The notes below the pieces were generated by a model. The model was not told the origin of the DNA, ran no database searches, and saw only the letters and a program-made list of their open reading frames with translations. A program made the position numbers and the translations under genes. 64,000 nucleotides of DNA from Streptomyces nigrescens (lineage in GTDB: Bacteria > Actinomycetota > Actinomycetes > Streptomycetales > Streptomycetaceae). Below, in pieces: positions 2,227 to 19,037 of this stretch. How positions within the stretch are numbered: the first letter of the stretch is position 1; each line of letters begins with the position of its first letter. Location: contig AP026073.1 in assembly GCA_024349765.1 (NCBI GenBank), positions 4,092,001 through 4,156,000 of the forward strand, read 5' to 3'.

Positions 2227-2284
2227 GGCCGACTCCAGTCACGGGAGGTGCGAAAACACGGGGGTCGTGGGTGGCGCGCGGACG

Positions 2285-4324
2285 TCACGGGAACGGGTGC
2301 GGGTGCGGGTTGATGTCCTTCTCGGCCAACGGATCGCCGCGGTATCCGAGTTCGGAGGGGAGCCGCAGCAGCCGGGGAAGCCCGTGGGTGCGGCGCATCC
2401 GGTGCCCGAACGTCATCGGCAGCAGCCCCGGCACGATCACCTTCGCGCAGGCCAGCCCGCCCGCCCGGTGCTCGTTCGTGGTCTGGTCGACCACGACGAC
2501 GTCCAGGCCCCGGTCGGTGAACCGAGCCACCGCCTCGGCCAGATCCTCGCGGATATCCGTGCCGCGCGGTCGGCAGGTGGCGTGCGCGAACGCCTCCTCG
2601 ACGGGCCGGCCGCCCGTCTCGGCGTCACCGCCGTCGCCGAGCAGGAAGGCGAACCGGTCGAACGCGGCCGGGTGGCAGTACAGCAGTGCATGGTCCCGCA
2701 TCTCGCGCACCAGATCCGGCTCGTCGACCATCGCCGCGATGCGTTCTCGTTCCTCGCGGAAGGCGGCCCGGTTCCACCCCAGGTTCGCCGCGAGTTCCAA
2801 CAGTCCGTTCCGCAGGGCGCCTTCGGGGTCGAAGTGGGCTCCTGCGGCGCAGACCGCGGCGGGCTCGTCGGCCCGGCCCGGTCCGCTCGGACTTATGGCC
2901 ATCACCCATGCCGTGGGGATGCCGTGCTCCGGGGTGGTGGCGAAGGCCAGCACCCGGTGGCCGCTGTCCTGCCGGATACGCTCGGCGAGCGCACCGATGC
3001 GGGGGTCGGACACCGTCCGCAGGTCGACCTGCGGCACGGGGAGGCGGGCGTACCAGGTCAGCAGGAACGCGTCCCGCTCGGCGAGTTCGACCAGCCCGTG
3101 CAGCGCTGCTTCCTCCAGACAGCCGCCCAGCGCGCACCCGTTGGACACTTCGTACGCCAGGGGCCGTGCTGCCGGGTTGCCGTGCCGGGTGCGGTAGTAC
3201 GCGTAGTCCTCCGGAACCAGGACGGGGGCATTACGGGCGAAGGAGTGTCCCCACACCCAGTTGAGCTCCAGGTCCGGGTCGTACGGTGGATAGGGGAAGT
3301 GCGGCTCGGCATAGCGCTCGGGCGGGTACAGGCCCAGGTCGACCGGGCACAGTGCCCGGTCGGCGATCTCCGCGTAGCCGGACCGCACCGTGGTCCGGCG
3401 CCCGCCGGGCTGGGCCCCGCCCAGCCGCTCCAGGGCCTCGGCGAGCGCGGTGCGGGCGCAGGCCCCGTAATCCAGGTCGCGGCCGAACCCGGCTTCCTGC
3501 TCCCCGCCCGGCAGGTGCAGTGGGGCAGAGACCATGGGATACGGGTAGTCGGTCCGCACGTCGAGCTGCCGGACCAGTCCCGTGCGTCCGTCGACGTATC
3601 GGGCAACCACATCCTCCCAGTCCGCCCTCAGGTCGCGCACGCGCGGGACATCCGGGGCGAGCTTGGGCCGAGGCCGCTCCATGAGGACGGGTGGCCGGTC
3701 CTCGGGGATCCCGCCGCACCAGGTGCACGCCGGGTCGGGCAGGAAGCGGTGCACGTCAATGACCATGGTCGTCAACGACAGGAAGGCGAGGGCGCTGTCG
3801 GTCAACCGACTGGAGGTGGACCTCAGTTCGCTCTCGACGAGCACGGCGGCCGTCTCGCACGCCCAGGTGGTGAGGATCGGTGACGCACGATCGGCGAGCC
3901 GGTCACCGTGCCGCTCCATGAGAGCCGCGCGCGGACTGTCCTTGCCGAGAGTCCGTTGCCGGCGCGTCCGGGCGCAGCGGGCGCAGCCGGCCCGCCCCGG
4001 GACGGTCGTCGGGCCGACCACGAGCAGGCCGAGCTCGACCCGTACTGGTAGCCAGGGTACGTCGGGACGCGGCGGCTCGGTCGCGGTCATCCAGCCGTCT
4101 TCGGCCGTGACGACCGCGGCACACGCGGGGTCCTCCTCCGGGACCAGCCGGTTCGTACGAGCCAGGGCGACACGGATCGTCGAGGCGAGGACGCCCTTGC
4201 CGACGACGGCGATGGGGGCCGCGGGGGCCGCAGGGGCTGTCGTGGGGTCTGCGGGGTGCGCCGGGCGGAGGGTTTCGGCGAGCCGTCCTGTGCGGGAGGC
4301 TGTCGCTGCGTCGGTCAATGTCAC
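2285..4324 (-). CDS. YcaO-domain azoline cyclodehydratase (thiopeptide)
   Basis: This 679-aa protein has an N-terminal ThiF/E1-like partner region (AVVGKGVLASTIRVAL) with Cys pairs, followed by a YcaO domain. YcaO hallmarks visible are ALAEALERLGG (ExxER), NGCALGGCLEEAALHGLVEL followed by AERDAF, and VVVDQTTNEHRAGG. The protein ends in PHPHPFP, the Pro-rich C-terminus typical of azoline-forming YcaO enzymes. The family uses ATP to convert precursor Cys/Ser/Thr residues into thiazolines or oxazolines. It starts 75 nt after the precursor gene. The start is uncertain: GTG at 4324 has GAGG only 2 nt upstream, so TTG at 4318, with GAGG 8 nt upstream, may be the real start. The reading frame continues upstream across the precursor gene, but that part looks non-coding. 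Confidence 0.92.
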   Translation of the reverse strand: MTLTDAATASRTGRLAETLRPAHPADPTTAPAAPAAPIAVVGKGVLASTIRVALARTNRLVPEEDPACAAVVTAEDGWMTATEPPRPDVPWLPVRVELGLLVVGPTTVPGRAGCARCARTRRQRTLGKDSPRAALMERHGDRLADRASPILTTWACETAAVLVESELRSTSSRLTDSALAFLSLTTMVIDVHRFLPDPACTWCGGIPEDRPPVLMERPRPKLAPDVPRVRDLRADWEDVVARYVDGRTGLVRQLDVRTDYPYPMVSAPLHLPGGEQEAGFGRDLDYGACARTALAEALERLGGAQPGGRRTTVRSGYAEIADRALCPVDLGLYPPERYAEPHFPYPPYDPDLELNWVWGHSFARNAPVLVPEDYAYYRTRHGNPAARPLAYEVSNGCALGGCLEEAALHGLVELAERDAFLLTWYARLPVPQVDLRTVSDPRIGALAERIRQDSGHRVLAFATTPEHGIPTAWVMAISPSGPGRADEPAAVCAAGAHFDPEGALRNGLLELAANLGWNRAAFREERERIAAMVDEPDLVREMRDHALLYCHPAAFDRFAFLLGDGGDAETGGRPVEEAFAHATCRPRGTDIREDLAEAVARFTDRGLDVVVVDQTTNEHRAGGLACAKVIVPGLLPMTFGHRMRRTHGLPRLLRLPSELGYRGDPLAEKDINPHPHPFP

Positions 4325-4398
4325 ATCCTCGTCGTTCGCCGGGACGCCGCGTCCGGCGGGCGCGGGGCCCGCCGAACGCGGCCGTGCTGCCGCTTGTT

Positions 4399-4581
4399 TC
4401 AGCAGCAGCAGCAGGAACAGCAGCTCGCCGGGGTACCGGTGGACGTGCAGTTGGACGCGCCGATCTCGACCATGGCGTGGCCCACGTTCACGGTCTCCAG
4501 GCTCGCGCCCGGCGAGGTCGGCAGGATCTCCAGCTCGTCCGCACTGAGGTCGGCGAGGTCGAGGACGAGTTCGTTCTGCAT
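4399..4581 (-). CDS. clzA: Cyclothiazomycin-type thiopeptide precursor
   Basis: This 60-aa peptide has an acidic 42-aa leader (MQNELVLDLADLSADELEIL and so on, ending VEIGA) and an 18-aa core SNCTSTGTPASCCSCCCC with seven Cys and six Ser/Thr. I recognise the core as that of cyclothiazomycin, a macrocyclic thiopeptide. The 42+18 architecture also fits my memory of that precursor. The symbol clzA is used by analogy. Flanking genes encode the expected modifying enzymes: SagB and Ocin-ThiF-like upstream, YcaO and LanB downstream. The ATG is preceded by AAAGGGG at 6 nt and AAGGAG further up. A 190-nt leader region upstream carries a control element shared with the first gene of the cluster. The last five codons are Cys Cys Cys Cys stop, a TGC run that could be prone to slippage. 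Confidence 0.95.
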   Translation of the reverse strand: MQNELVLDLADLSADELEILPTSPGASLETVNVGHAMVEIGASNCTSTGTPASCCSCCCC

Positions 4582-4662
4582 CGCGATCCCCTTTCTCCTT
4601 GAATGGATGAGAAGTTGGCCAGTGACTGGTCGCTCCGCATCCTGCGGTCAGCGAGCGTGCGG

Positions 4663-4696
4663 TGTCTTCACGGTCCGACCGCAGGACCGGCCGCAG
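4663..4696 (-). promoter_or_regulatory. Shared upstream element A of the thiopeptide cluster
   Basis: Read on the minus strand, this 34-nt segment has 28 identities to 8478-8511, with an unbroken match GACCGTGAAGACA. Inside it are two tandem 12-mers, TGCGGCCGGTCC and TGCGGTCGGACC. It ends 82 nt before the precursor ATG. Tandem repeats with about one helical turn of spacing are typical of activator sites such as SARP or response-regulator sites. The binding protein is unknown. Confidence 0.6.
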
Positions 4697-4771
4697 TACG
4701 GGGCTGCGGGCGAGGCCGTGGACCGGCCGCAGGAGGGACGTGCGCCGCCCGCGAGGCACCGCAGGTGCGGT

Positions 4772-6400
4772 TCACCAGATCAGCTCCGGCTCGTACTGGG
4801 CGGTGGGCCGGCGGCGGCCCACGATCAGCGTGAACACCGGCACCTGGGCGGCGTCCAGGCCGATCAGGTCCCGGACCATCCCGTCGTGGTAGCCGTTGGT
4901 GATCCGTGCGGACAGCCCGGCCGCGGCGGCGAGCACGCTGACCCGCTGGGCGACGATCCCTGCCTCCTGGTGCAGGACGCGGTACCCACGGGCGCCGAAC
5001 CACCGGTCCCCGGCGAGCCGGTCGGCGGTGAGGAATACGACGGCACCGGCCTTCGCCGCGTTCACCGCCGGCGTCCGGTCGCACAGCATGCCGACCACGG
5101 CGCGCCAGTCCCGCGCCGGCAGTCGCAACAGGGCGGGCGGCTCCATGCCGGCGGCCAACCGGTACAGCCCGGGGGAGGCCCCGTCCGTGCCCAGCACGAG
5201 AACATAGGCCCCCACGAGAGGGCGGCACGGCGCCTCCGTATGGTCGGACGAGACGGGCTCCAGCGCATACCGCAGTGCCGACGCCAGTCGTGCGAAGGCC
5301 ACGGGCCGGGCGTCCGGGAGGAACATCCGCCCGCCCGAGTCCCGGGCACGCAGCGCGGCGGCCAGGTCCATTCCACCGGCCCCGGGTTCTGGCCCCGCGA
5401 GCCCGAGGACGCCGTCCGGGCCCGACGCCTCGACAGGCAGGCGAAAGTCGTCGGGGGCGACGGCGGCACCGGGCCCCGCGAGCCGGGCGGTGAGGTCGAG
5501 CGCGGTCAGACCGGACCACGTGCCGTCGGACGTGCGATCGGTCTGTACATGAACGGGCTGAATATGCGGTAACTCGCATGGAAGGCAGGGCTGTTGAGAA
5601 GATGCGACACGTGCCTGCGCCGGCGCCGCCTCCCCGGCCGGGGCCAGGTCGAGCACGGCGAACGCCGTCTCCTCCCTCCCGTCGAGCCCCAGGGCGCGAT
5701 TGACCACCTCATCGTGGAAGCGATAGTGCACCCGCCCGCGGAGCCCGAGCGCGGCACCGGTGAGCAGCGCGTTCCCCACCGTCATTCCCGCTTCCTGCGC
5801 ACACAGCCGGTACGCGTAGTCCCGGTAGCGGAACGCGGTCTTGCGGAACCAGGCGGAAGCCACCAGGAGTCCCGCCTCCGCGCGCACACCTGCGCCGATG
5901 CGCACCGCGTGCGGCACACCGCCCTCGCGCAGCAGCGTCACGGAGTGGTGCGCCGGGTTGTAGTGGTAGCACCCGGCGGGCAGCTCACCCGCCGGACGTG
6001 CCAGCCACACATACAGCTCCACGGGGTGGAAACAGCGCGCGGAGGCGACCATCCGGTGATAGGGCCACACGGCATGCGGACCGAGCTCGATCCGGCCGAT
6101 CCCGTACGTCCAGTACAGCAGCGCGGAGAGCGCGCGCTGGTCCAGGACGTCGAGGGTGGGGATGCCCTGCGGGTGGGCGTCGCGGAAGGCTTCGAAGGAC
6201 CAGCGCGCGTCCCCTATCCGCCGCGCCGGCTCGGGAAGTACGTGGCGGGGCAGCTCGCGGTACGTCTTGACCGGCAGCGGGTCGTCCGGGCCGCCTTCTT
6301 CGCCGTGGCCCTCGGCGAAGAGGTCCTGGACCCCCTCGAAGGTCCGCCACCAGAACCGCAGGCCGACGGAACCGTGTTGCCCGACTGTGGCGCTACGCAT
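4772..6400 (-). CDS. SagB-type FMN-dependent azoline dehydrogenase
   Basis: This 542-aa protein is of the SagB/ThcOx type, with two nitroreductase-fold halves. The first half contains SALLYWTYGIGRIEL, a PYHRMVASARCFHPVELYVW stretch and RYRDYAYRLCAQEAGMTVGN. The second half contains HQEAGIVAQRVSVLAAAAGL. Such enzymes oxidise thiazolines to thiazoles using FMN, which fits the many Cys of the neighbouring precursor. The ATG overlaps the end of the upstream Ocin-ThiF-like gene by 8 nt and is preceded by GGAGG at 9 nt, so the two are translationally coupled. The reading frame closes 190 nt before the precursor gene. Length is normal for two-domain thiopeptide dehydrogenases. Confidence 0.9.
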   Translation of the reverse strand: MRSATVGQHGSVGLRFWWRTFEGVQDLFAEGHGEEGGPDDPLPVKTYRELPRHVLPEPARRIGDARWSFEAFRDAHPQGIPTLDVLDQRALSALLYWTYGIGRIELGPHAVWPYHRMVASARCFHPVELYVWLARPAGELPAGCYHYNPAHHSVTLLREGGVPHAVRIGAGVRAEAGLLVASAWFRKTAFRYRDYAYRLCAQEAGMTVGNALLTGAALGLRGRVHYRFHDEVVNRALGLDGREETAFAVLDLAPAGEAAPAQARVASSQQPCLPCELPHIQPVHVQTDRTSDGTWSGLTALDLTARLAGPGAAVAPDDFRLPVEASGPDGVLGLAGPEPGAGGMDLAAALRARDSGGRMFLPDARPVAFARLASALRYALEPVSSDHTEAPCRPLVGAYVLVLGTDGASPGLYRLAAGMEPPALLRLPARDWRAVVGMLCDRTPAVNAAKAGAVVFLTADRLAGDRWFGARGYRVLHQEAGIVAQRVSVLAAAAGLSARITNGYHDGMVRDLIGLDAAQVPVFTLIVGRRRPTAQYEPELIW

Positions 6401-8396
6401 CGCCCCGAGCCTCCACCCGCCGCACCGCTCCCGCCGGACCGTCCTCGTCCCCGGCCTCGTCGGCGATGACGACGCGCACGACGAAGGGCAGCACCTCGTG
6501 CACCGCCGGATCGTGGTCGAGCGGCACTACGAGCGGGCGCGCCCCTCGCGACCGCAACGCCTCGACCATCCGCTCGGGCCCGGCCGGCACCGGCAACTCG
6601 GCACTGTCGTCGCAGGTGACAGGCGCGCCGAGCAGCCCCCGCCGGGCCGGTGCGTAGGCGGATTCGCCCGTCATCACCGACTGGCGGTCGAGCAGGGCGG
6701 CGCGGAGCCCCTCGACGACCGCATCCTCCCCGCACGTCGCGGCGGCCGGGCGGCCACCCTGCCACCAGGCGAGGACAGGCACGCCCAGCGCTTCCCCGAT
6801 ATCGGCCACCTCGACCGAGCCGCGCGAGGCAGACAGGAGGTCGAGGAGACGCCGTTCCCCGGGGTCCATGGCATCGGGCCGCAGCCGCACGGGCCGAGGT
6901 CGCGACCGCCCCTCCGCCACATCGCGCAGAGCCAGGCGCACGCACTGCTGGGCGAGGCCGTCCGCCACGCCCTCGTCCCAGCTGAGCCGGGCGGCCACTC
7001 CGACCTCGTGGTCCGTGGTGAACACCCGGCACGCCGCCACCGCCTCCGCGCGCCGCTCGTCAAGGGCCCAACCCCACACGGTGCCACCGGGGCCGTAGCG
7101 GCGTTCGTCGGGGTGGTGCGCCGCGTACGAGGCGAGCCCGCGCAGCGCGGCGTCCCGGCGTGCTGCGGCAAAGCCCGTCCCCGCCCCGTGCACCGGCGCT
7201 TCGCCCTCCGCGCGCGGCACCGCCTCGGTCACGTTGAGCGGCACCTGGGTGAACTCTCTCTCGTCGAGGGCGCGTAGAACACCGATGTACGGGTCGAAGC
7301 AACGGGCCGCGCGCCGGGAGAACGTGTCCTCGTCCAGTGGTGCCGCGGCACCGAGTCGTTCGATGCGCCGCCTGAACTCCTTTCGCGTCTCCGGACGGGC
7401 CGGGGCCGCCGCCGGGTGGAGCAGAAACGCATGTGTCGAGGTGCGCAGGGTCTCCAGATCGATCCGCGTCACTTTCCGCGCACCATGCGCGGCGTCCATG
7501 GCGCCGACGATCCCGGTGAGTGTGGTGAAGGCCGCAAGCCCCAAGTGCGCGGCGACCACCGCGGCGGCGGGCCCGGTGAGGAAGGCATTCGGCCGGAACG
7601 GTCTGCGGGCGTCGAGCCGCAACCACGCCGATCGCCAGTCGGCTCCGGCCGGCCCCAGCCACGCGACATCGTCCACCACCAGCCCCTGCACCAGTAGTGT
7701 GCCCGCATTCCGGCACAGCTCGTCGAGTCGCAGAGCCCGGTCGACTCCACTACCGTCCGCGACGTGAATCACCGCGCCCACCTGGCCGACAAGTCGTTCC
7801 AACCCTCCTTTGTCACAGGCAACATGACGGAACGTCTGCTCTGGATCCCGCGCGGCGGCTTCGGCCGTGAGCTCCGCCAGGCGCTCGGCGTTGGTGACGG
7901 CCTTCTCCGTACACACGGCTCGCAGCTGCCGCACCCCGGAGCGCAGCGCCGAGCAGACCAGCGAGACGAATACGGGGCCCGCGCCCACCACCACGACCTC
8001 GCTGTCGCGGTAGGTCTCGAACCGCCGCGCCGCGGAGTCGCAGTGGTACTCGATGAATGCGATCTCGGACGCGTACGTCTCCAGCTCCCGCCGCGTGAGC
8101 CGGTGCGGCAGTTCCTCCTCCGCATCGATAAGGCAGCCGGCGGCGTGCAATTGACCCACGAGGGAGTGCACGACCTGCCGCTTGTCGTCGGGCAGTCGCC
8201 CGACCAGGTCGTCGAGCTCGACCGAACCGTCGAGATGTGGCGCCAGCCGGTCCAGCCACTGATAGGCGGACCGGCCGCGCAGGGCGAGGTCGGCACCGGC
8301 ACCGAAGACGTGGACGCCGTCACCCGTCGGCACGTACAGCACATCGGATTTGAGTCGCGGGCGCATCATCCGCCTTCGGGGTCGGGCATCCGCCAC
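6393..8396 (-). CDS. Ocin-ThiF-like thiazole maturation partner protein
   Basis: This 667-aa protein opens with a region reading LKSDVLYVPTGDGVHVFG, typical of the leader-binding (RRE-like) N-terminus of Ocin-ThiF-like proteins. A Rossmann-like segment follows (SEVVVVGAGPVFVSLVCSAL), then a long C-terminal part without familiar catalytic motifs. In thiopeptide clusters such proteins bind the precursor leader and present it to the YcaO enzyme. It is the first visible gene of the minus-strand set and overlaps the SagB gene by 8 nt. GTG at 8396 has no clear ribosome site. ATG codons at 8369 and 8366 follow AAGG and are plausible alternatives. However, the distance from the shared upstream element to 8396 is 82 nt, the same as for the precursor gene. 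Confidence 0.85.
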   Translation of the reverse strand: MADARPRRRMMRPRLKSDVLYVPTGDGVHVFGAGADLALRGRSAYQWLDRLAPHLDGSVELDDLVGRLPDDKRQVVHSLVGQLHAAGCLIDAEEELPHRLTRRELETYASEIAFIEYHCDSAARRFETYRDSEVVVVGAGPVFVSLVCSALRSGVRQLRAVCTEKAVTNAERLAELTAEAAARDPEQTFRHVACDKGGLERLVGQVGAVIHVADGSGVDRALRLDELCRNAGTLLVQGLVVDDVAWLGPAGADWRSAWLRLDARRPFRPNAFLTGPAAAVVAAHLGLAAFTTLTGIVGAMDAAHGARKVTRIDLETLRTSTHAFLLHPAAAPARPETRKEFRRRIERLGAAAPLDEDTFSRRAARCFDPYIGVLRALDEREFTQVPLNVTEAVPRAEGEAPVHGAGTGFAAARRDAALRGLASYAAHHPDERRYGPGGTVWGWALDERRAEAVAACRVFTTDHEVGVAARLSWDEGVADGLAQQCVRLALRDVAEGRSRPRPVRLRPDAMDPGERRLLDLLSASRGSVEVADIGEALGVPVLAWWQGGRPAAATCGEDAVVEGLRAALLDRQSVMTGESAYAPARRGLLGAPVTCDDSAELPVPAGPERMVEALRSRGARPLVVPLDHDPAVHEVLPFVVRVVIADEAGDEDGPAGAVRRVEARGDA

Positions 8397-9399: not shown

Positions 9400-10593
9400 T
9401 CAGCCGATCGCGAGGGCGGTCGATGCGTCGATGAGGGCGAGTTGGCCCGGGCTGGCTCTTCGGGTCCGGGCCTGTTCGACGAAAGGGCCCAGCTCGGCGC
9501 GGAGGGTGGCCGAGTCGATGCGCTTGATCACGGGCAGCGTGGCCTCGACGATCTGACAGGCGTCGTCGAGGCGGCCGACACCGGCCAGGGCTGTCGCCTG
9601 CCGAACCGCGAAGCGGGCCTGGGAGTTGTCGTCCGCCGGGACGGCCGGCCGGCGCCGGCGCTCGGCGGCGAAAAGGTCGGCGGCCAGCTCGAAGCGACGG
9701 AGGCTGAGCATGCAGGACGCCTCGATGAGTCGAGGGTTGCCGTTCTCGATGCGCGGGCCCCAGTGAGGGGTCCGGTCGCCAGTGACTTCGGCGGCGTAGC
9801 CTCTGAACCGCTCCAGTGCCTCCCGGCACGCCCCCGCATCGCCACGGCACGCATGCCCCTGGGCCGCGCGTCGCGCGGCGTGCGCGCGGATCACCGGGTT
9901 GGCTGCCGGGTGCCCGGCCGCCTGGTCAGCGAATCCGATCGCCGCATGGGTGTCACCGCGGTGCTGGGCGATGAACGCCTTGCGGACCAGGGCATACGCG
10001 GCCACCGTTTCGTCCCCGCCGAGTGCGCCCCAGCGGACGGCGAGATTCGTCCAGCGCAACGCCTCCGCGGGATTTCCCGCCTCTTGTGCCATCCACCCCG
10101 TGTATTCGGCGAACCTTGAGGCGAGCCGCCAGATCTCGGCACGCTGCTCGCCAACGGCATGCGGGCCGGCGTCCGTCAGGATCCGCGTGATCGACTTCAT
10201 CGAGGCGGTGACGAACCTGGGTCCGGTGGATCTGCCGATGCCCTTCAGCTCCCACAGGACCCGCTCGTATCCGGCGACCACGGGGCCGGCCTCGACGATG
10301 CCCTCGGTCCGGGCGCCGCGCCGGCCGGCCCCGGCCAGCTCGACGAGTTCCCCGCCGGTGCCGAAGGCCGCGTCGCATGCCGCCGCCACAGCGGGCGTCG
10401 GGTTGCGCAACCCGCTCTCCAGATTGCAGATCTGCCCTTCGGACACGTTCGCACGCCGGGCGAACTCGCGCACGCTCCACCCCCGACGCGCCCGGAGTGT
10501 GGCCAGGACGACGCCGAAGTCGCCCGGCGGCAGGCGCGTGCCGGTCGATCTCCCTGCCGAGACCGTCCCTGTCGCGCTGTCCGCCGGGTCCAT
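9400..10593 (-). CDS. XRE-family regulator with TPR-like C-terminal domain
   Basis: This 397-aa protein has an N-terminal helix-turn-helix of the XRE/Cro type (about residues 26-80: GVVLATLRARRGWSVREFAR, then NVSEGQICNLESG). A long alpha-helical region rich in Ala and Trp-Ala-Leu follows, as in the many Streptomyces HTH proteins that carry TPR-like repeats. These are usually pathway-specific or signal-sensing regulators whose ligands are unknown. It is divergent from the TIR operon with 121 nt between the two starts, so it may control that operon. The ATG at 10593 has only a weak ribosome site. Confidence 0.85.
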   Translation of the reverse strand: MDPADSATGTVSAGRSTGTRLPPGDFGVVLATLRARRGWSVREFARRANVSEGQICNLESGLRNPTPAVAAACDAAFGTGGELVELAGAGRRGARTEGIVEAGPVVAGYERVLWELKGIGRSTGPRFVTASMKSITRILTDAGPHAVGEQRAEIWRLASRFAEYTGWMAQEAGNPAEALRWTNLAVRWGALGGDETVAAYALVRKAFIAQHRGDTHAAIGFADQAAGHPAANPVIRAHAARRAAQGHACRGDAGACREALERFRGYAAEVTGDRTPHWGPRIENGNPRLIEASCMLSLRRFELAADLFAAERRRRPAVPADDNSQARFAVRQATALAGVGRLDDACQIVEATLPVIKRIDSATLRAELGPFVEQARTRRASPGQLALIDASTALAIG

Positions 10594-10714
10594 ACCGGCC
10601 AGCGTACGGAGCCTCGCGGCCCCTATTCAATCCCCGGCGAATAGCCACCGAGCGTGTACTCCACTCCTAGGGTGAGCACCATCCCTGACGTCAAGGCTTG
10701 CCGGATAGGGGGCA

Positions 10715-11332
10715 ATGGTGCCGCGCATCTTCCTCAGCTTTCGCAAACCGGACTCCCGGTGGATGCGAGACCGCGTCTACCGCGCGCTGTCCGACCGCTT
10801 AGGTGCCCACGAGATCTTCAAGTCGGGCCAGTCGATTCCGCCCGGGGCCGACTTCGCCGAGATCCTGCGGCGGCAGGCCGCCGAGTGCGAGCTCATGTGT
10901 GTACTGATCGGGCCACGGTGGCTCGACGCGCGGGACGAGGACGGTGTGCGGCTCCTGGACCGGGCTCACGACTGGGTCCGCCTGGAGATCGCGACAGCTC
11001 TGCGGGCCGGAAACCGCGTCGTCCCGGTCCTTCTGGGTGACGCGACGATGCTGCCCGGCGCCTCGGCGCTGCCGGCCGACATCGCGGAGCTGGCGCGCCT
11101 GCAGTTCCTCCGCGTTCCGGAGACCCATCTGCCGGACGGGCTGGAGCACTTGGGCGATGCGGTGACCGCTCTCCTGTCCGATACCGATACCGATACCGAC
11201 CCCGCTGTCGAGCCCGGGCACAGCACGGCACCGGCCGCTGATCCGGAGCCATCAATGACCATGACGGCTCATGTGTCCGGTGGTGGCAGCGCATACCAGG
11301 CGGCCCGTGATCAGACGATCAGGCTGGCGTGA
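10715..11332 (+). CDS. TIR-domain protein with C-terminal Gly-rich tag
   Basis: This 205-aa protein begins with a TIR fold (RIFLSFRKPDSRWMRDRVYR). It carries a WxxxE motif (DWVRLEI, W87 to E91), where E91 is the likely catalytic glutamate of NAD-cleaving TIR domains. After a D/T-rich linker (SDTDTDTD) it ends in the tag HVSGGGSAYQAARDQTIRLA. Closely related tags occur at the C-terminus of the 143-aa protein and the N-terminus of the STAND NTPase in the same operon. I infer that this is the effector and that the tag recruits it to the NTPase. The gene is first in the operon, 10 nt before the next start. ATG at 10715 sits very close to AGGGGG; GTG at 10718 may be the true start. Confidence 0.9.
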   Translation: MVPRIFLSFRKPDSRWMRDRVYRALSDRLGAHEIFKSGQSIPPGADFAEILRRQAAECELMCVLIGPRWLDARDEDGVRLLDRAHDWVRLEIATALRAGNRVVPVLLGDATMLPGASALPADIAELARLQFLRVPETHLPDGLEHLGDAVTALLSDTDTDTDPAVEPGHSTAPAADPEPSMTMTAHVSGGGSAYQAARDQTIRLA

Positions 11333-11342
11333 GGGGCGGACG

Positions 11343-13568
11343 ATGGATCATCCGGGGGCAGACGGTGCTCATCGGATCGGGCCGTATGCCCTGCTCGGAA
11401 GGCAGAGCACGGTCGGCGGGGGCGAAGTCTTCGCAGCCCGCACGGACGAAGGGCGACTCGTCACGGTCACGGTCGTGGCGCCCGAACTCGCCGCGGACCC
11501 AGGGTTCCGGGACCGGTTCCGAGCCGCCGTCGAGGCCGCACGGACGCTGTCCGGTGCCTTCCTCGTACCGGTGGTGGATGCCGACGCCGACGCGCCGGTT
11601 CCTTGGCTGGCGACCGAGTTCACCGCCGGAGTGCCGCTCCGGCAGGCGGTGGACCGGCACGGCCCGCTGTCCGAACCGGCTCTGCGGGTGCTCGCCGACG
11701 GCCTCGCCCAGGCGCTGGCCACACTCCACGCGGCCGGGACGGTCCACGGCGAGGTGAGCCCGGACTCGGTCCTGCTGACCATGGACGGGCCCCGCATCAC
11801 CGCCCTGGGGATCGTGGGAGCCACCGGCAGTCCGGCACCCTCACCGACGGACGACATGTTCGACCTCGGGTCGACCGTGCTGTTCGCAGCTTCCGGAGGC
11901 GAGCCGGACACGGGCGCCCTCGCCGTGTCGCTGCGCGAGGTGATCGGCGGCTGCCTGTACCCGGAACCGCAGGATCGTCCCACCGCGGAGCAACTCGTCG
12001 ACTACCTGAGGCGTCAGGACCTGCCGGCCCTGAGCGGCAGTTGGCTGCCGCCGGCGGTGACCGCCGACATGGCTGCCGCGGCCGCGGCGGTCGGATCGGT
12101 GTCCGCCGGGGACGGCGGCCAGGGCCCGTTTCCTCCGCCGCCAGTGATCCCTCCCGGCACAGGTATCAGCCGCCGGAAGCTGATCGTCGGTCTGGCCGGG
12201 GGCGCGGCCGTACTCGGCGGAGCCGCGGCGGCACTCGCCTTTTCCGGCGACTCCTCGCCGGCACCCGACGGCCGAGCCGGCGGACCCGGGTCCACTGCGC
12301 GGCCGACCTCTCCGTCAGGCGTGCGATCCACTCCGGCATCCTCTGCGTCGCCGTCCTCGACGGACGGACCGGAATCGATCGTGCTGGCCGGACCCGACGC
12401 CGCCAAGGCATGGTCAGGCGCCGGAAAGCATGCCCCCAACTGCCTGGAAGCGTCCGACAAGGTGGTCATGGTGGTCACGAACACCGGCACGTCCTTCCTG
12501 GACGCCGCGACCGGAAAATCCATGTTCCCCGAGCTGAACACGACCAGCTTCCTCGGCACGACCAGCCTGACGTACCCGACGGCGTACGCGGACGGAGTGT
12601 TCTACCTGCTCTGCGACACCCCGAGTCAGTCAGGCATGCTGGCGGCGTTCGACGCCGCCAGCGGGAAGGTGAAGTGGGCGACCAAGATGGCCGACGTCGA
12701 TCCGGGCGGCGGCACGCATGCGGCGAGGTACCTGAGCAACTATGTGGCAGTCGCGGGGAACACGGTGTACGTATGCGGCCAGATGAGTCGGACATCCGGG
12801 TCGTTCTCGCCCGAGTCTCCGACCACCGGCTACATCCGTGCGTTCAACGCTGCGACCGGCAAGGGACTGTGGCGGGTCAAGGGCACGGACATCAACAACG
12901 TGCTCGTGCCGCCCTCCGGATCTCACCTGCTGGCCACCTCGGCCGTTCCGGGCAAGAAACCCGGCCGCGTCCAGATGATCGACGCCGGCAAGAAGGGCGC
13001 CCGCGGCTGGAAGGTATCCGTCCCGCACGCCGGGTACTACTTCACCACCGGCTGGCCGCTGACGTGCTACGCCGCCGGACTGTTCCTGTTCGCCGGCGGC
13101 AACGGCGACACGCTGTTCGCCGTCGACGCGACCACGGGCAGCGAGAAGTGGCATCGGCGCTTCGATGCGAAGAGCGGGGACCAGGTCCAGATCGGCGCCC
13201 CGTTCGCCGGCTTGGACGGCGCGACCGTCTACGTACCGGTCGGCAGTGACCTGGCCGCCCTGGCCTCGGCCGACGGCACGCTCCAGTGGGTCGCGACGCT
13301 CGGCGGGGCCAGCGACATGGGCGGTTCCAACATGTTCAAGGCCGCCCTCAGGACTTCCGGCAAGAGCGCGCAGTGTTCGGCCGACACCGTCTTCGCCACC
13401 GACAGCGCCAAGACGCTGTGGGCCATCGACGCGGCCACCGGCAGGGCCCGGTGGAAATACAGCGACCCCGGGCAGCCGGACGTGGGGTTCCTGTGGACGG
13501 TGGGCGGCGACCACGTGTTCATCGCCTCCCACCTGACAGTGACCGCGATCGCGGCCCACGGGCGGTAA
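11343..13568 (+). CDS. Pseudokinase / PQQ-like beta-propeller membrane protein
   Basis: This 741-aa protein starts with a Ser/Thr kinase-like domain (about 1-260) whose catalytic residues appear lost. The Lys of the VAIK region is replaced (VTVTVVAP), the HRD loop reads VHGEVSPDSVLL, and no DFG is visible (ALGIVG). A proline-rich linker follows, then one membrane helix (about 279-301, KLIVGLAGGAAVLGGAAAAL), a Ser/Pro/Thr-rich stalk, and a PQQ/quinoprotein-type beta-propeller of about 390 aa with repeats such as AFDAASGKVKWAT and AIDAATGRARWKY. The pseudokinase should be cytoplasmic and the propeller outside, suggesting a sensor or scaffold. ATG 11343 follows GAGGGG at 6 nt. It is the second gene of the operon and the only one without the Gly-rich tag. 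Confidence 0.88.
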   Translation: MDHPGADGAHRIGPYALLGRQSTVGGGEVFAARTDEGRLVTVTVVAPELAADPGFRDRFRAAVEAARTLSGAFLVPVVDADADAPVPWLATEFTAGVPLRQAVDRHGPLSEPALRVLADGLAQALATLHAAGTVHGEVSPDSVLLTMDGPRITALGIVGATGSPAPSPTDDMFDLGSTVLFAASGGEPDTGALAVSLREVIGGCLYPEPQDRPTAEQLVDYLRRQDLPALSGSWLPPAVTADMAAAAAAVGSVSAGDGGQGPFPPPPVIPPGTGISRRKLIVGLAGGAAVLGGAAAALAFSGDSSPAPDGRAGGPGSTARPTSPSGVRSTPASSASPSSTDGPESIVLAGPDAAKAWSGAGKHAPNCLEASDKVVMVVTNTGTSFLDAATGKSMFPELNTTSFLGTTSLTYPTAYADGVFYLLCDTPSQSGMLAAFDAASGKVKWATKMADVDPGGGTHAARYLSNYVAVAGNTVYVCGQMSRTSGSFSPESPTTGYIRAFNAATGKGLWRVKGTDINNVLVPPSGSHLLATSAVPGKKPGRVQMIDAGKKGARGWKVSVPHAGYYFTTGWPLTCYAAGLFLFAGGNGDTLFAVDATTGSEKWHRRFDAKSGDQVQIGAPFAGLDGATVYVPVGSDLAALASADGTLQWVATLGGASDMGGSNMFKAALRTSGKSAQCSADTVFATDSAKTLWAIDAATGRARWKYSDPGQPDVGFLWTVGGDHVFIASHLTVTAIAAHGR

Positions 13569-13584
13569 GGGACAAGGAGAAGAC

Positions 13585-14016
13585 ATGGAGACGAGTGTGG
13601 AACTCGCCGGCCTGGCATCGGCGGCCGCGGCGCGCCTGATCGATCTGTTGACGACGGACGGCTGGGCCGCGGTCAAGTCCTCGGTCCTGTCGCTGTGGCG
13701 GTCCGCGCACCCGGAGCGCATCGAGGAGGAACTCGCCGATGCGCGCGGCGAGTTGCTGCAAGCACAGCAGACAGGCGACGGCCAGGAGCTCCAGGGGCTG
13801 CTGGTCGCCGAGTGGCAGGCCCGCATCATCCGGCTGATGGCCACGCGGCCGGACGCCGTCGCTGAGCTGCGCACGCTGTTCGGCGCGGAACTGCGCCCTG
13901 CCGGAGCCCCGGAACAGCAGATCTCGGGCTCGATGACGCTGGAGGCACACGTCTCCGGCGGCGACGCGTTCCTGGCCGGCCGGGACATGAATGTCACCAG
14001 GGGCGGACAGGCGTGA
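13585..14016 (+). CDS. Small helical adaptor-like protein with C-terminal tag
   Basis: This 143-aa protein has an N-terminal hydrophobic helical segment (AGLASAAAARLIDLLTTDGW), a Glu/Arg-rich helical middle (RIEEELADARGELLQAQQ), and the C-terminal tag HVSGGDAFLAGRDMNV. I know similar small Streptomyces proteins with this layout only as uncharacterised proteins. The tag suggests it joins the TIR protein and the STAND NTPase in one assembly. It starts 16 nt after the pseudokinase gene with AAGGAG at 6 nt. Its stop overlaps the NTPase start (GTGA), so translation is coupled. An adaptor role is inferred only from position and tag. Confidence 0.8.
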   Translation: METSVELAGLASAAAARLIDLLTTDGWAAVKSSVLSLWRSAHPERIEEELADARGELLQAQQTGDGQELQGLLVAEWQARIIRLMATRPDAVAELRTLFGAELRPAGAPEQQISGSMTLEAHVSGGDAFLAGRDMNVTRGGQA

Positions 14017-17000
14017 CGGAACGCAGCACCGGTGCCCCGTCCCCCGACGGGCCGCCCCTGTGGCAGCCGAAACGGCAGGAGGCGAGCGCGACCGGCGGCG
14101 GCAGCGTCTTCCAGGCCGGCCGCGACCTCCACGTCCGCGTCGGCGACGAGGGGCGCAGAACCGTGCCCGGCCCGGGGGCCGACCAAGTGCCGTGCCCGTA
14201 CCCGGGCTTGGCCCCGTTCGGCGCGCGGCACAAGCAGTGGTTCTACGGCCGCGAGCGAATGGTTCACCTCGTGTGCGAGCGGATGGACGCCCGGATGCGT
14301 GAGGGCGGCCCGCTGGTGCTGATCGGTCCCTCGGGAGCCGGGAAGTCCTCGCTGCTCGCGGCCGGGGTGCTGCCGGCCCTGGACGACGGCCGGCTTCCGG
14401 CGGCGGGTTCGAGCACCTGGCCGCGGCTGCTGCTGACCCCGACGGCATCCCCGGCCCTGGCGCTGGCGGCCGCCGCCAGGCTCGACGCCGAGACCGCCCG
14501 GCGCACCGCACCGGCGTGGCGGGCCGATCCCGCACGGTGCCTTGCCGAGCTGCGCGAGATCACCGGAGCCGGCGATCCGGCACCCACCGGGGAGTCCCCC
14601 TCCGCGGGCCTGGTCGTCGTGGTCGACCAGTTCGAGGAGATCTTCACGGCCTGCGGCGACGAGACCGAACGGCAGTGGTTCATCGACGTGCTCGACCGTC
14701 TGGCCCGGCCCGCGGGCGGTGCGGTCGTGGTGCTGGGGGTGCGCGCGGACTTCTATGCCGCGTGCACGGCCCATCCGCAGCTCCGGGCGGCGCTCCAGGC
14801 CGGTCCGGTCCTGCTGGAGCCGATGACGGAGGACGAACTCAAGGACGCGATCCGCCGCCCGGCCGGCAACGTGGGACTCGACGTCGAAGACGGCCTGGTC
14901 GAGGTGCTGCTGGCGGACCTGGGCGCGGTCGGGGGGCCGGTCGGTACGAGCACCACGGGCCGACTGCCGCTGCTCGCACACGCGCTGCGGGCCACCTGGC
15001 AGCAGCGCCACGGCCACACGCTCACCGTGGACGGGTACCGCGTCACCGGCGGCATCCAGGGTGCCATCGCCAATACGGCGGACAGGCTCTACGACACCCT
15101 GCCGCCGCCCTGCCACGAGGCCGCACGGTGGGTGTTCCTGCGGCTCGTCATCGTAGGACGCGACGCCGACGACAGCCGCCGGCGCGTCCGGTACGACGAG
15201 CTGCTGCGTCACGCGCCGGACCGGGAAGCGGCCGTCAGGGTCCTGGACGACTTCACCCGCGGCCGGCTGCTGACCCGGGACCAGGACACGATGGTGATGA
15301 CACATGAGGTGCTCATCCGCGCCTGGCCCCGGCTGCGGGGCTGGATCGAGCACGACCGCAGCGGAAACCTCGTACGACAGGACCTGGAAGAGGCGGCCGA
15401 GCTCTGGGAACAGGCCGACCGGGAGGCAGCCGCGCTGTACCGCGGCAACCGCCTGGAGGCCGCCCTCGCCTGGGCCGAAACGCACGGGCCGGAACTCAGC
15501 GGCGCCGCCCGGGCATTTCTGGCAGCCGCCCGCCACCACCAGCGGCGCGGGCAACGGCTCCGGCGCGCCGCGGTCGCCACCATCACCGCCCTGGCCGTGA
15601 TCGCCTCGCTGGCCGCGGTGTTCGCCTTCCGGCAGGAGTCCAACGCCCGGAAGGCCGCCACCCAGGCCCTTCGAGCCCGCGACCAGGCCATCAACGCCGC
15701 CGTCACCTCCGCGTCCGTGCAACTGGCGCCGACCGATCCCTCGCTGTCCGCTCAACTCGCGCTGACCGCCTACCGCATGGACCCGACCCCAAAGGCGGCG
15801 TCCCGGCTCATCACGACCGAGAACACACCGCTGGACACCCGGCTTCCCGGCCCGCGCGGCGCGGTGTACACCGTGGCCTACAGTCCCGACGGGCACATGC
15901 TGGCGGCCGGGAACGTCCACCAGAGGCTCGTCCGGCTGTGGGACGTCTCCGATCCGAGCCGTCCGGTGGCGCTGGGCCGACCCGTGCCGGTGGACCGTTC
16001 CGTCGATTCGATCCTGTCGCTCGCGTTCAGCCCGGACGGCCGGGTGCTGGCCGTCGGCGGACACACCAGCCACAACGGCGATGCCGGTTCCGGCGGATTC
16101 GTCGACCTGTGGAGCCTGACCAGCCCCAGCCACCCGGTCCTGCTGGGCCGGCCGAAGAGCCCCGGCATTCAGGGCTTGGACGCCGCGACCTCCATCGAAT
16201 CGCTGGCGTTCAGTCCCGACGGCCGTACCCTGGCCGCCGGATGGCACGCCGGATTCGTCAGCCTGTGGAACGTCAGCCGTCCCGACGACGTCAAACCCGC
16301 GGGAGCGCCCCTGAACCTCGACTGCCCCGGCGTCTTCTCCGGTCGCATCGCGTTCAGCCCCACCGGGCACACCCTGGCCGCCGCATGCGACGACGATGCC
16401 GGCACCATCCGCCTGTGGAACACCACCGACCCAGCCCACCCCGGCCGCGGCCGTTCCCTGAAGGCCGGGCATCGCGTCATCTCCCTGGCGTTCAGCCCCG
16501 ACAGCCGCACCCTGGCCGCCGGAATCGAGGACAGCACGGTCCACCTGTGGAAGGTCGCGGACCCCAGCCACCCCACCCCCCTGGGCAAGCCGCTGACCGG
16601 TCCCGCCCAGCCCGTCATGTCGGTGGTGTTCAGCCCGGACGGTCACACCCTGGCCGCCGGCAGCGCCGACCACACCATCCATCTGTGGAACGTCACCCAC
16701 TCCAGGGCTATCGGCCCTCTGGGCCGGCCGCTGACCGGTCCCGGCGACGCGGTGACCGACGTGGTGTTCAGCCCGGACAGCCGCACCCTCGCCGCCGGGA
16801 ACACCGACGGCAACGTCGATCTGTGGAATCTGCCGCCGACCCGGATCATCGGCGCCGGCGGCAATGTGGCATCCGTGGCGTTCAGCCCCGACGGACGCAC
16901 CCTGGCCGCCGGAAACCAGAACAACACCGTCTCGCTGTGGAACACCGCCGACCCCAACCACCCCGCTCCCCGCGGTGATCCGCTCACCGGCCCCAAGGAA

Positions 17001-17906
17001 CCGGTCGACGCCGTGGCGTTCAGCCCGAACGGGCGCACCCTGGCCGCAGGCGACAGCGGCGGCACCGTCACGTTGTGGAACACCGCCGACCCCAGCCATC
17101 CCGTTCGCCTCCGTAAGACCCTCAGCGGGGCGGACGGGACCATCTTCTCCCTGGCGTTCAGCCCCGACGGCCACACCCTGGCCGCGGCCGGCGACAACCA
17201 CGATCGTGGCAGCATCGCCCTGTGGGACGTCAGCGACCCCGCTCACCCCGACGCCCAGCCCGGCATCTCCAATGACCACACGAGGTCCGTCGAATCTCTG
17301 GCGTTCAGCCGCGACGGCACGATGCTGGCGGCCGGCGGCGACGGCAGCAACCATGAGGTCGGCCTGTGGAGTACGACGGACCCCGGGGTCCGCATCGGGG
17401 AGCCGATCGACCAGCCGAACGCCACCAGCACCTGGGTCGCGTTCAGCCCGGACGGCCGCACGCTCGCCACCGGGAACAGCCGCGGCACCGTCACCCTGTG
17501 GAATGCCACCGACCCCCACCACCTCACGCGCAGGGGCAGTCCCCTGACCGTACCCGGCGGCAGCCTGTGGTCGGTGGCGTTCAGCCCGGACGGGCACACC
17601 CTCGCAGCGGCCGGCCACACCGACGACGGCACCATCACCCTGTGGAACGTCACCGATCCGGACCGCCCCACCCTCATCGGCCGCCCGCTGACCGTGGAGA
17701 CCGGATTCGCCGCCGTTCTGGCGTTCAGCCCGGACGGTCACACCCTGGCCGCCACCACCGACGACGGCGTCGCCACGCTCTGGGACCTGAACGTCAAGTC
17801 CGCCATCAGCCGTATCTGCGCCGGGAGCTCCGGCGCCTTGAGCCGCCAGCAATGGAGCCGATACGTTCCCCAACTGCCGTACGACCCACCCTGCGTGACC
17901 ACCTAG
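14013..17906 (+). CDS. STAND NTPase with 14 WD40 repeats and N-terminal tag
   Basis: This 1297-aa protein carries a tag near its N-terminus (residues 25-43, ATGGGSVFQAGRDLHVRV). An nSTAND1-type NTPase domain follows (CPYPGLAPFGARHKQWFYGR), with Walker A GPSGAGKSSLL at about 105-115 and Walker B LVVVVDQFEEIFT. Next come a helical region, one predicted membrane helix (AAVATITALAVIASLAAVFA), and from about residue 616 a run of 14 WD40 repeats of the form AFSPDGRTLAAG...VxLWN, enough for two seven-bladed propellers. STAND proteins are switch ATPases that oligomerise when their sensor repeats bind a trigger. It is the last gene of the operon and starts with GTG overlapping the previous stop. I infer the sensor and assembly hub of a TIR-based system. 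Confidence 0.92.
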   Translation: MTERSTGAPSPDGPPLWQPKRQEASATGGGSVFQAGRDLHVRVGDEGRRTVPGPGADQVPCPYPGLAPFGARHKQWFYGRERMVHLVCERMDARMREGGPLVLIGPSGAGKSSLLAAGVLPALDDGRLPAAGSSTWPRLLLTPTASPALALAAAARLDAETARRTAPAWRADPARCLAELREITGAGDPAPTGESPSAGLVVVVDQFEEIFTACGDETERQWFIDVLDRLARPAGGAVVVLGVRADFYAACTAHPQLRAALQAGPVLLEPMTEDELKDAIRRPAGNVGLDVEDGLVEVLLADLGAVGGPVGTSTTGRLPLLAHALRATWQQRHGHTLTVDGYRVTGGIQGAIANTADRLYDTLPPPCHEAARWVFLRLVIVGRDADDSRRRVRYDELLRHAPDREAAVRVLDDFTRGRLLTRDQDTMVMTHEVLIRAWPRLRGWIEHDRSGNLVRQDLEEAAELWEQADREAAALYRGNRLEAALAWAETHGPELSGAARAFLAAARHHQRRGQRLRRAAVATITALAVIASLAAVFAFRQESNARKAATQALRARDQAINAAVTSASVQLAPTDPSLSAQLALTAYRMDPTPKAASRLITTENTPLDTRLPGPRGAVYTVAYSPDGHMLAAGNVHQRLVRLWDVSDPSRPVALGRPVPVDRSVDSILSLAFSPDGRVLAVGGHTSHNGDAGSGGFVDLWSLTSPSHPVLLGRPKSPGIQGLDAATSIESLAFSPDGRTLAAGWHAGFVSLWNVSRPDDVKPAGAPLNLDCPGVFSGRIAFSPTGHTLAAACDDDAGTIRLWNTTDPAHPGRGRSLKAGHRVISLAFSPDSRTLAAGIEDSTVHLWKVADPSHPTPLGKPLTGPAQPVMSVVFSPDGHTLAAGSADHTIHLWNVTHSRAIGPLGRPLTGPGDAVTDVVFSPDSRTLAAGNTDGNVDLWNLPPTRIIGAGGNVASVAFSPDGRTLAAGNQNNTVSLWNTADPNHPAPRGDPLTGPKEPVDAVAFSPNGRTLAAGDSGGTVTLWNTADPSHPVRLRKTLSGADGTIFSLAFSPDGHTLAAAGDNHDRGSIALWDVSDPAHPDAQPGISNDHTRSVESLAFSRDGTMLAAGGDGSNHEVGLWSTTDPGVRIGEPIDQPNATSTWVAFSPDGRTLATGNSRGTVTLWNATDPHHLTRRGSPLTVPGGSLWSVAFSPDGHTLAAAGHTDDGTITLWNVTDPDRPTLIGRPLTVETGFAAVLAFSPDGHTLAATTDDGVATLWDLNVKSAISRICAGSSGALSRQQWSRYVPQLPYDPPCVTT
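15859..17800 (+). repeat. WD40-coding repeat array (14 units)
   Basis: About 14 in-frame units of roughly 130-150 bp. Each contains a near-identical block encoding AFSPDGxTLAAG and one encoding LWN. The blocks are very similar at DNA level (for example ggcgttcagcccggac recurs), so unequal recombination could change the number of propeller blades. Confidence 0.8.
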
Positions 17907-18134: not shown

Positions 18135-19037
18135 ATGACGGCACCACCATGCTGGACCGATGACCTGTTCCCGTTCCCCACCCCACCCGCACTCGCCAAG
18201 GTGATCGACATCGCCTGGGAGGAGGGGTTCCTCACGACGGACCTATACGAGGAGGGCCTGTACGACGCTGGCCGCGTGCAGACCAGCTTTGCCCTGCCGT
18301 TCGACCTGTGCGAGGTACCCCTCGCACCCCAGGGGTGGGAGTACTGCTACGCGGGGGAAGCGTTCCGCCGGCATCACGTACCGTTCATGTCCGTGCCGGA
18401 ACTCCTGCCCTTCGCGGACCTTGGCACCGGCACCTGCGTCGGATGGGTGGTCCCTGCGCCGGAACTCGGACGCACCGACCATCCCGTTGCCTCCTTCGGC
18501 CACAAGGAGCCGGGCGTCATCGGCCGGAATACCCTGGACGGCCTCACCTTTCTGCTCTCCCTCGCCCTGCGCAGCGGAGGAGAGCGCCGTCGCACCCAGG
18601 TGGCACGTCTGTCGGCCGAACTGGGCATCCATCCCACCCCGGAGTACGGCCTTACGCCCGGCGGCCGCAGCGACGCGGAGGTCCCCCTCGATCTTGCGCC
18701 GCCGGCCGGCTGGCGCCACGAACCCGACCCGTCCGGCATCGGTGTCGGCGTTCTCGCACCGAACGACGCCTTCGCCGATGAGTATCCCGCCTTCACCGGG
18801 GACACTGACTTCATCCTGGCTGATGCCTCCCGGATGCTCGACGCGGGCTACCCGGCGAGCGCTCTTATGGGACTCACCGCCGCCTACCACGAGGATGTAG
18901 GGCGCCTGCCGGACCTCCACCCCTTGTGGGCTCGCGCTTACGACGATCTCGGCCGCACGCTGCTCCGCGAACGTCTCGACGTCATGCTGGAAGACCACCC
19001 GGGCCAGCCTCGCACTTTGACGGAGTGGGGCGTCTGA
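18135..19037 (+). CDS. Hypothetical protein
   Basis: This 300-aa soluble protein starts MTAPPCWTDDLFPFPTPPAL. I do not recognise it with confidence. It is acidic, has no signal peptide or membrane helix, and contains the segment CVGWVVPAPELG followed by HPVASFGHKEPGVIG, faintly like SUKH/SMI1-type immunity proteins. The C-terminal third is helical and ends in LTEWGV. ATG 18135 follows CTCCTCCC and has no good ribosome site. It stands alone between insertion-sequence scraps, which suggests an accessory gene. Codon use is normal for the window. Confidence 0.6.
   Translation: MTAPPCWTDDLFPFPTPPALAKVIDIAWEEGFLTTDLYEEGLYDAGRVQTSFALPFDLCEVPLAPQGWEYCYAGEAFRRHHVPFMSVPELLPFADLGTGTCVGWVVPAPELGRTDHPVASFGHKEPGVIGRNTLDGLTFLLSLALRSGGERRRTQVARLSAELGIHPTPEYGLTPGGRSDAEVPLDLAPPAGWRHEPDPSGIGVGVLAPNDAFADEYPAFTGDTDFILADASRMLDAGYPASALMGLTAAYHEDVGRLPDLHPLWARAYDDLGRTLLRERLDVMLEDHPGQPRTLTEWGV

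Follow-up and report, generated by a model that had tools for sequence, protein, structure and literature searches.

A four-gene operon in Streptomyces nigrescens (contig AP026073.1, positions 4,092,001 to 4,156,000; this whole 64,000-nucleotide stretch is called the window here) encodes a TIR protein, an AfsK-like pseudokinase joined to a PQQ propeller, a 143-aa protein presumed to be helical, and an nSTAND1 NTPase with WD40 repeats. A single Gly-rich tag family occupies the C-terminus of the TIR protein, the C-terminus of the 143-aa protein, and the N-terminus of the STAND protein, and this sharing of a tag is real, conserved, and specific. We propose that the operon probably encodes a membrane-linked signalosome of the NLR/BASS type, in which one STAND receptor would serve two tagged effectors, the Bell-like helical protein and the TIR protein. 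The genes, tags, and predicted transmembrane (TM) segments are listed below, with E values from a tag hidden Markov model (HMM).

10715..11332, +, TIR protein of 205 aa with WxxxE (W87/E91); Pfam TIR_2, 40.4 bits against a cutoff of 28
11267..11320, +, TIR tag, residues 185-202; tag HMM E 5.3e-6
11343..13568, +, AfsK-like pseudokinase (residues ~10-230), TM segment, and PQQ propeller; PQQ_2 6.1e-22, Pkinase 29.6 bits against a cutoff of 31.7
12180-12236, +, predicted TM segment of the pseudokinase-PQQ protein, residues ~280-298, from hydropathy
13585..14016, +, Bell-like protein of 143 aa, presumed on sequence grounds to be helical; unmatched in Pfam (E ≤1) and in PADLOC (E ≤0.1)
13942..13995, +, tag of the 143-aa protein, residues 120-137; tag HMM E 0.0015 at residues 125-138
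14013..17906, +, nSTAND1 NTPase (residues 62-471), TM segment, and WD40 repeats (~621-1295), GTG start; nSTAND1 389.1 bits against a cutoff of 27.1, WD40 by Pfam
14082..14135, +, STAND tag, residues 24-41; tag HMM E 3.8e-5
15573-15629, +, predicted TM segment of the STAND protein, residues 521-539; hydropathy maximum between NTPase and WD40

Tags and domains of the operon

The four genes are co-directional, with gaps of 10 and 16 nucleotides followed by a 4-nucleotide overlap. A preliminary description of this DNA had given these four genes and spacings and had placed tags at the same three termini; all are present as it quoted them. Genes of the regions compared were called with a simple codon-usage caller of our own making. 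The genome has ~71% GC. Local alignments of the window tags scored 50 for TIR against the 143-aa protein, 54 for TIR against STAND, and 47 for the 143-aa protein against STAND. The chance comparison used 1393 called proteins of at least 80 aa belonging to neither the helical family nor nSTAND1; after removal of 31 tagged TIR copies, none of the other 1362 proteins reached the window scores. The best background scores were 37 (TIR tag against C-terminal tails), 52 (TIR tag against N-terminal heads), and 45 (143-aa tag against N-terminal heads), and among the matches listed, all but one of the high N-terminal scores came from tagged proteins of other loci. The tag HMM, for which the operon's orthologues were excluded and 38 unique 143-aa-family tails of other loci were used, matched only the TIR, STAND, and 143-aa proteins in the window (next best window protein, E 17). 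A looser tag pattern occurred at nine places in the window's own genome, three of them in the operon, against one for the control. A literature search with the tag letters found no relevant paper.

Scanning with the TIR alignment recovered 27 loci, of which L166-L182 (16 Streptomyces and one Kutzneria) are orthologous and, with the window, make 18. All four genes were called in 13 of these (window, L166, L168-L170, L172, L174, L176, and L178-L182), with three kinase starts called short, while the other five are partial or decayed. The kinase call is missing or split in L167 and L171, L173 is a remnant with neither helical protein nor STAND, and in L175 and L177, which keep TIR, kinase-PQQ, and STAND, the helical protein has largely disappeared, along with its tag. 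Tags unconserved in homologous operons were named in the preliminary description as evidence that would speak against a shared code; instead, the tag family is on all 18 distinct TIR orthologues, and the tag is more conserved than the adjoining linker in all three proteins. Conservation was 0.96 for the TIR tag against 0.62 for the preceding linker and 0.84 for the whole protein (n = 18), 0.89 against 0.74 and 0.85 for the 143-aa protein (n = 15), and 0.79 against 0.63 for STAND (n = 17), where the tag falls below the whole-protein value of 0.83.

W87 and E91 of the TIR protein, the WxxxE residues pointed out in the preliminary description, are invariant in 18/18 orthologues, and we regard the protein as a candidate NADase effector. 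Weak profile matches tie it to Thoeris (PADLOC ThsB, E 1.4e-5, for which PADLOC sets no cutoff), but its NCBIfam ThcB4 score of 23.2 bits is far below the cutoff of 220, and no ThsA match was found among the other three operon proteins with Pfam, PADLOC, or NCBIfam. Assignment to Thoeris was rejected on these grounds. A plasmid search returned one record with a TIR of 35% identity, whose region is an XRE-TIR cluster of another type.

AfsK is a Ser/Thr kinase with PQQ repeats and a kinase-TM-PQQ architecture. The second operon protein shares this architecture, and AfsK is its best kinase model (NCBIfam, 148 bits against a cutoff of 1300), with weak matches to many PADLOC kinase profiles too. 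However, key catalytic residues are lost here: in the window, the VAIK Lys is replaced by Thr, the HRD Asp by Glu, and the DFG Asp by Ala, and an active AfsK-type kinase was therefore rejected. The VAIK Lys is missing in all 12 orthologues readable at that position (the region lies outside three open reading frame calls), the HRD Asp in 13 of the 15 aligned orthologues (it is present in L179 and L181), and the DFG Asp in 15/15, window included in each count. Three other kinases in the data retain all three residues. The term pseudokinase in the preliminary description is thus borne out. In 14 of 15 orthologues, the hydropathy maximum of this untagged protein is a segment that opens with SRR[KN] and precedes the PQQ repeats; in L182, it lies elsewhere. 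In the STAND protein, the maximum falls between NTPase and WD40 in 36/36 long homologues (30 distinct sequences). Since TM placement by hydropathy and positive-inside reasoning agree with such an orientation, both the WD40 and the PQQ propellers are predicted to lie outside the cell, in keeping with the surface-facing propeller suggested earlier.

The tag family across Streptomycetaceae

Of 394 Streptomycetaceae genomes, 238 have relatives of the 143-aa protein, and six plasmid records carry a distant relative (best identity, 38%). We took 60 regions, of which one surrounds a paralogue in the window genome and 59 surround relatives located in other genomes or contigs. A loose tag expression matched the C-terminus of 54 of the 58 called relatives; three of the other four, including the window-genome paralogue, bear a different tag, HNT[IV]xGG, and one has only a GGDQHI stub. 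For 36 of the 58, the following gene runs in the same direction within 60 nucleotides, often with a 4-nucleotide overlap, and most of these neighbors start with a tag of the same kind; the others (e.g., L055, L056, and L063) have no next gene in such a position. Tagged neighbors are nSTAND1-WD40 proteins, proteins of 700-800 aa, or small membrane proteins. The 700-800-aa neighbor in L205, the sole one put to Pfam, is an NB-ARC-TPR protein.

Tags of helical proteins match those of their own neighbors. With pairs limited to less than 75% identity, 26 of the 36 were kept, and the mean own-locus score was 57.0 against 42.1 (standard deviation, 2.1) after permutation, a value reached in 0 of 20000 permutations. 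Among 329 control pairs of adjacent genes, the median score was 20 and the maximum 42, compared with 47 for the window pair. One kept pair, L105, had no tag match.

The tag HMM was also run over 1670 called proteins, some from duplicate loci, a set gathered around helical-family and TIR genes and therefore not a survey of all tag carriers. At E <0.1, it matched 68 helical C-termini, 31 TIR C-termini, 29 nSTAND1 N-termini, and 17 other N-termini, and nowhere else (63, 18, 24, and 17 as distinct sequences). All TIR matches were from the present operon type; TIRs of other types and the TIR fusion in L117 did no better than E 61. In Streptomyces atratus, a profile built from all of the helical family, including the window protein, also reached the TIR tag (E 0.0036). 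A codon pattern for [YF]QA[GA]RDxx[IV] was present in 87 of 394 Streptomycetaceae genomes, and the reversed pattern in 5 by manual count. From its matches, we picked 20 regions by eye, mostly not beside a listed relative (one, G235, was). Nine had a tag-HMM match at a terminus at E <0.1 (L205, L206, L207, L208, L210, L212, L216, L217, and L221), and the other 11 were chance, antisense, weak internal, or undecided, so that the count of 87 genomes is an upper bound. The preliminary description had read the three tags as one assembly code. A shared tag family and matching between helical proteins and their own neighbors stand behind that reading; co-variation of TIR and STAND tags among close orthologues does not.

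Several loci hold tagged proteins of other kinds. In L216 (2758-7334, -), a 280-aa protein resembling class III nucleotide cyclases by eye, with no Pfam match at E ≤0.01, ends in a stretch that looks tag-like by eye and has no HMM match; it adjoins an 1178-aa protein tagged at its N-terminus (HMM E 4.7e-5). The cyclase-like protein is a possible third effector type. In L212 (5938-9485), a 144-aa tagged protein (tag E 9.3e-8), unmatched by the helical-family HMM, precedes a tagged 1029-aa TPR protein whose STAND match is below cutoff. Small proteins with N-terminal tags occur in L206 (5350-6216; weak, E 1.1), L207 (6156-6668), and L087; those in L206 and L207 show hydrophobic segments on visual inspection and are without a Pfam match, and tagged partners therefore need not be STAND proteins. 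The paralogue in the window genome (L105/L002, ~1744 kb) ends in HNTISGG...PVIQAG, which resembles the tags in L118 and L119 and pairs the same domain with another tag family.

Proposed assembly and alternatives

The tag-pair principle, in which a Bell effector and an NLR are joined through BASS motifs, was reportedly published by Dyrka and coworkers in the Journal of Molecular Biology in 2020. In the operon, as in BASS/NLR pairs, neighboring genes encode effector and receptor with a common motif, C-terminal in the one and N-terminal in the other, and the receptor is a STAND NTPase with a repeat domain. In the portions of the literature available to us, BASS pairs are likewise adjacent genes, one for a small helical effector with the motif at its C-terminus and one for a STAND receptor with the motif at its N-terminus (PMC7889193, PMC8086366, PMC9815663, PMC12261475), and these motifs, common to Bell C-termini and NLR N-termini, are less often carried by TIR or CHAT domains (PMC7889193). 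Those pairs are described as two-gene clusters, whereas here one receptor is found with two tagged effectors, a pseudokinase-propeller, and a regulator. Fungal NLR signalosomes (HELLP/PNT1 and HET-S; PMC7889193, PMC7885112) also place a short motif on receptor N-terminus and effector C-terminus but, as far as the same kind of partial text goes, are two-component, and their likeness to the operon is one of layout. The conflict systems of Kaur et al. (2021, PMC8195603), in the text available, join nSTAND1, TIR, and kinase domains through homotypic modules in multicellular bacteria; the link there is a helical effector-associated domain, and here a short tag. According to the accessible part of PMC12261475, a Streptomyces NB-ARC protein carries a BASS1 motif at residues 9-27, printed without its letters. 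That the present tag is BASS1 is a guess, made only from the fit of this position to the 700-800-aa neighbors. Among the records listed by literature searches on TIR, STAND, amyloid, Streptomyces, and pseudokinases, none gave an account of a two-effector operon with a pseudokinase, a weak absence given that the founding BASS paper lay outside the search. The two-effector, pseudokinase-containing layout looks new on a tag-pair principle already known, and the operon is most likely a two-effector relative of tag-linked NLR signalosomes.

We envisage the nSTAND1-TM-WD40 protein as the receptor. Ligand binding would cause it to oligomerize through its NTPase, clustering its N-terminal tags on the cytoplasmic side, and the clustered tags may then recruit, or act as a template for, the corresponding tags at the C-termini of the Bell-like protein and the TIR by homotypic assembly. 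The Bell-like protein would be a candidate membrane-damaging effector and the TIR a candidate NADase activated by clustering; as the presumed immune outcome, the infected or stressed hyphal compartment would stop growing or die. The tagless pseudokinase-PQQ protein may be the membrane partner of the TIR arm, serving as anchor, second sensor, or gate, and a divergent XRE regulator would control expression. Two fusions outside the orthologous loci bear on the membrane partner: in L117, TIR, a TM segment, and a PQQ propeller (Pfam) share one reading frame, followed by apparent insertion sequence genes (by eye) and a further PQQ piece, and in Catenulispora L184, a TIR is joined to a TM segment and to a long tail that has no Pfam match. 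Such fusions point to a TIR arm acting together with a membrane propeller.

Several results weigh against this signalosome model. Among orthologues, neither the TIR-STAND nor the helical-STAND tags co-vary (9405 and 12639 of 20000 shuffles, respectively, reached the observed mean). In the own-locus comparison, the own partner was the top scorer in only 6 of 26 rows, and matching is therefore a tendency rather than one-to-one. The fusions in L117 and L184 have no tag-HMM match at E <0.1. No PDB sequence relative of the TIR was found at E ≤0.01, and the best PDB relative by the helical-family profile had an E of only 0.44. Finally, the hydropathy maximum of the helical protein, 1.32, is low for a membrane helix.

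The tags might instead be non-amyloid docking peptides that bind a common partner, or one another as a small folded assembly, in which case the coupling would be real and the fiber would not. We consider this possible, if rather doubtful. An R-D pair in the tag is invariant across 15 helical-protein orthologues, and the tag is by eye unlike the BASS3 peptide in the available Table 2 of PMC8086366, both of which speak for docking; the layout, with effectors tagged at the C-terminus and receptor at the N-terminus, is nevertheless that of motifs for which the available text reports amyloid formation.

The preliminary description had called the 143-aa protein an adaptor, and a related view would make it an inhibitor that couples or restrains the TIR. 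Its gene lies between those of TIR and STAND, its one domain match is a sub-cutoff hit in NCBIfam, and TIR-helical is the sole tag pair that co-varies among orthologues (1 of 20000 shuffles, shared ancestry not removed). However, relatives elsewhere are paired directly with a tagged neighbor where no TIR is tagged. Furthermore, the helical domain and tag are lost in L175 (S. sindenensis) and L177 (S. parvus) while the TIR and STAND tags stay, a loss not expected for an indispensable adaptor or antitoxin, provided that the loci are still active. An adaptor or inhibitor is accordingly the less promising role, one we judge rather unlikely, and for these two reasons the protein is better seen as a Bell-like effector; its length and layout fit a Bell domain as described, whereas its hydropathy maximum, noted above, is low for a membrane helix. 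The tag claimed for it in the preliminary description stands, and the adaptor role now looks rather unlikely. The same losses indicate that the TIR arm can stand alone.

It also seems unlikely that the operon is a developmental or cell-envelope sensing system, rather than an immune one, in which AfsK-like pseudokinase, outward propellers, and XRE regulator answer a surface cue. Although its best kinase model is AfsK and two outward propellers are predicted, its spread is patchy (TIR relatives of at least 65% identity in 8 of 394 family genomes), flanks differ in most loci, gene loss and decay are seen, and TIR and STAND are typical conflict-system domains. Chance or low-complexity likeness among Gly-rich tails, which short Gly/Ala-rich tags at ~71% GC might invite, was rejected, since none of the 1362 other proteins scores as high, tag-HMM matches are specific in position, and no permutation of 20000 reached the own-locus score.

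More speculatively, the signalosome model could be extended to a plug-in assembly code of Streptomycetaceae, an idea we hold only tentatively. One receptor would fire several unlike effectors simultaneously, here combining membrane attack with NAD depletion, and effectors (TIR, Bell-like, cyclase-like, or another small tagged protein) would be gained and lost by tag transfer. The outward STAND and pseudokinase propellers would then make this NLR sensing at the cell surface, before or at entry, and not inside. The operon is a compact, genetically tractable case, with one receptor and two chemically different candidate effectors on one tag, and lets one ask whether short tags alone set specificity in bacterial NLR signaling, for what reason the operon retains two effectors, and how a membrane pseudokinase contributes. 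Natural comparisons are offered by loci that lack the Bell-like domain (S. parvus L177 and S. sindenensis L175) and by the TIR-TM fusions (L117 and L184).

Regulatory region and neighboring loci

Two features lie upstream of the TIR gene.

9400..10593, -, XRE/HTH_31 regulator, divergent from the operon; Pfam HTH_31 E 5e-13
10623..10644, no strand, perfect inverted repeat CTATTC-N10-GAATAG between the XRE and TIR genes; candidate operator

An XRE homologue is directly upstream of TIR in 16 of the 18 orthologous loci, window included; the exceptions are L170, whose contig begins 263 bases before the TIR gene, and the decayed L173. The repeat is the sole match in the window at up to one mismatch (none in 100 shuffles) and occurs exactly within 400 bases upstream of TIR in 14 of the 18 loci, being altered in L179-L182. 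It may serve as an operator. A -10-like box, TAGGGT, was noted by eye at 10668-10673; a sigma-70 promoter scan found no promoter, and a terminator scan gave a single terminator-like site, whereas shuffled sequences gave more. The next gene downstream, at 18135-19037, was rejected as a fifth member because genes after STAND differ among orthologues (by eye).

A second TIR operon type, with the order XRE, TIR, and large protein, occurs in L118-L135, among them L129 of the window genome (~5664 kb), and in L190. In L118, the sole one tested, the large protein matches nSTAND3 just over cutoff. TIR C-termini of this type match the N-termini of their next genes weakly (30.7 against 26.1 on permutation, 14 of 16 pairs kept; 80 of 20000 permutations), with several alignments of low complexity.

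Within the window, a 1747-aa antisense open reading frame (12630-17873, -) mirrors the operon and is probably a codon-usage artifact of high GC rather than a gene. At 1-8369, a 60-aa precursor-like peptide (4399-4581, -), its C-terminus rich in Cys, Thr, and Ser, lies beside large proteins, and these upstream genes resemble, by eye, a cluster for a ribosomally synthesized and posttranslationally modified peptide.

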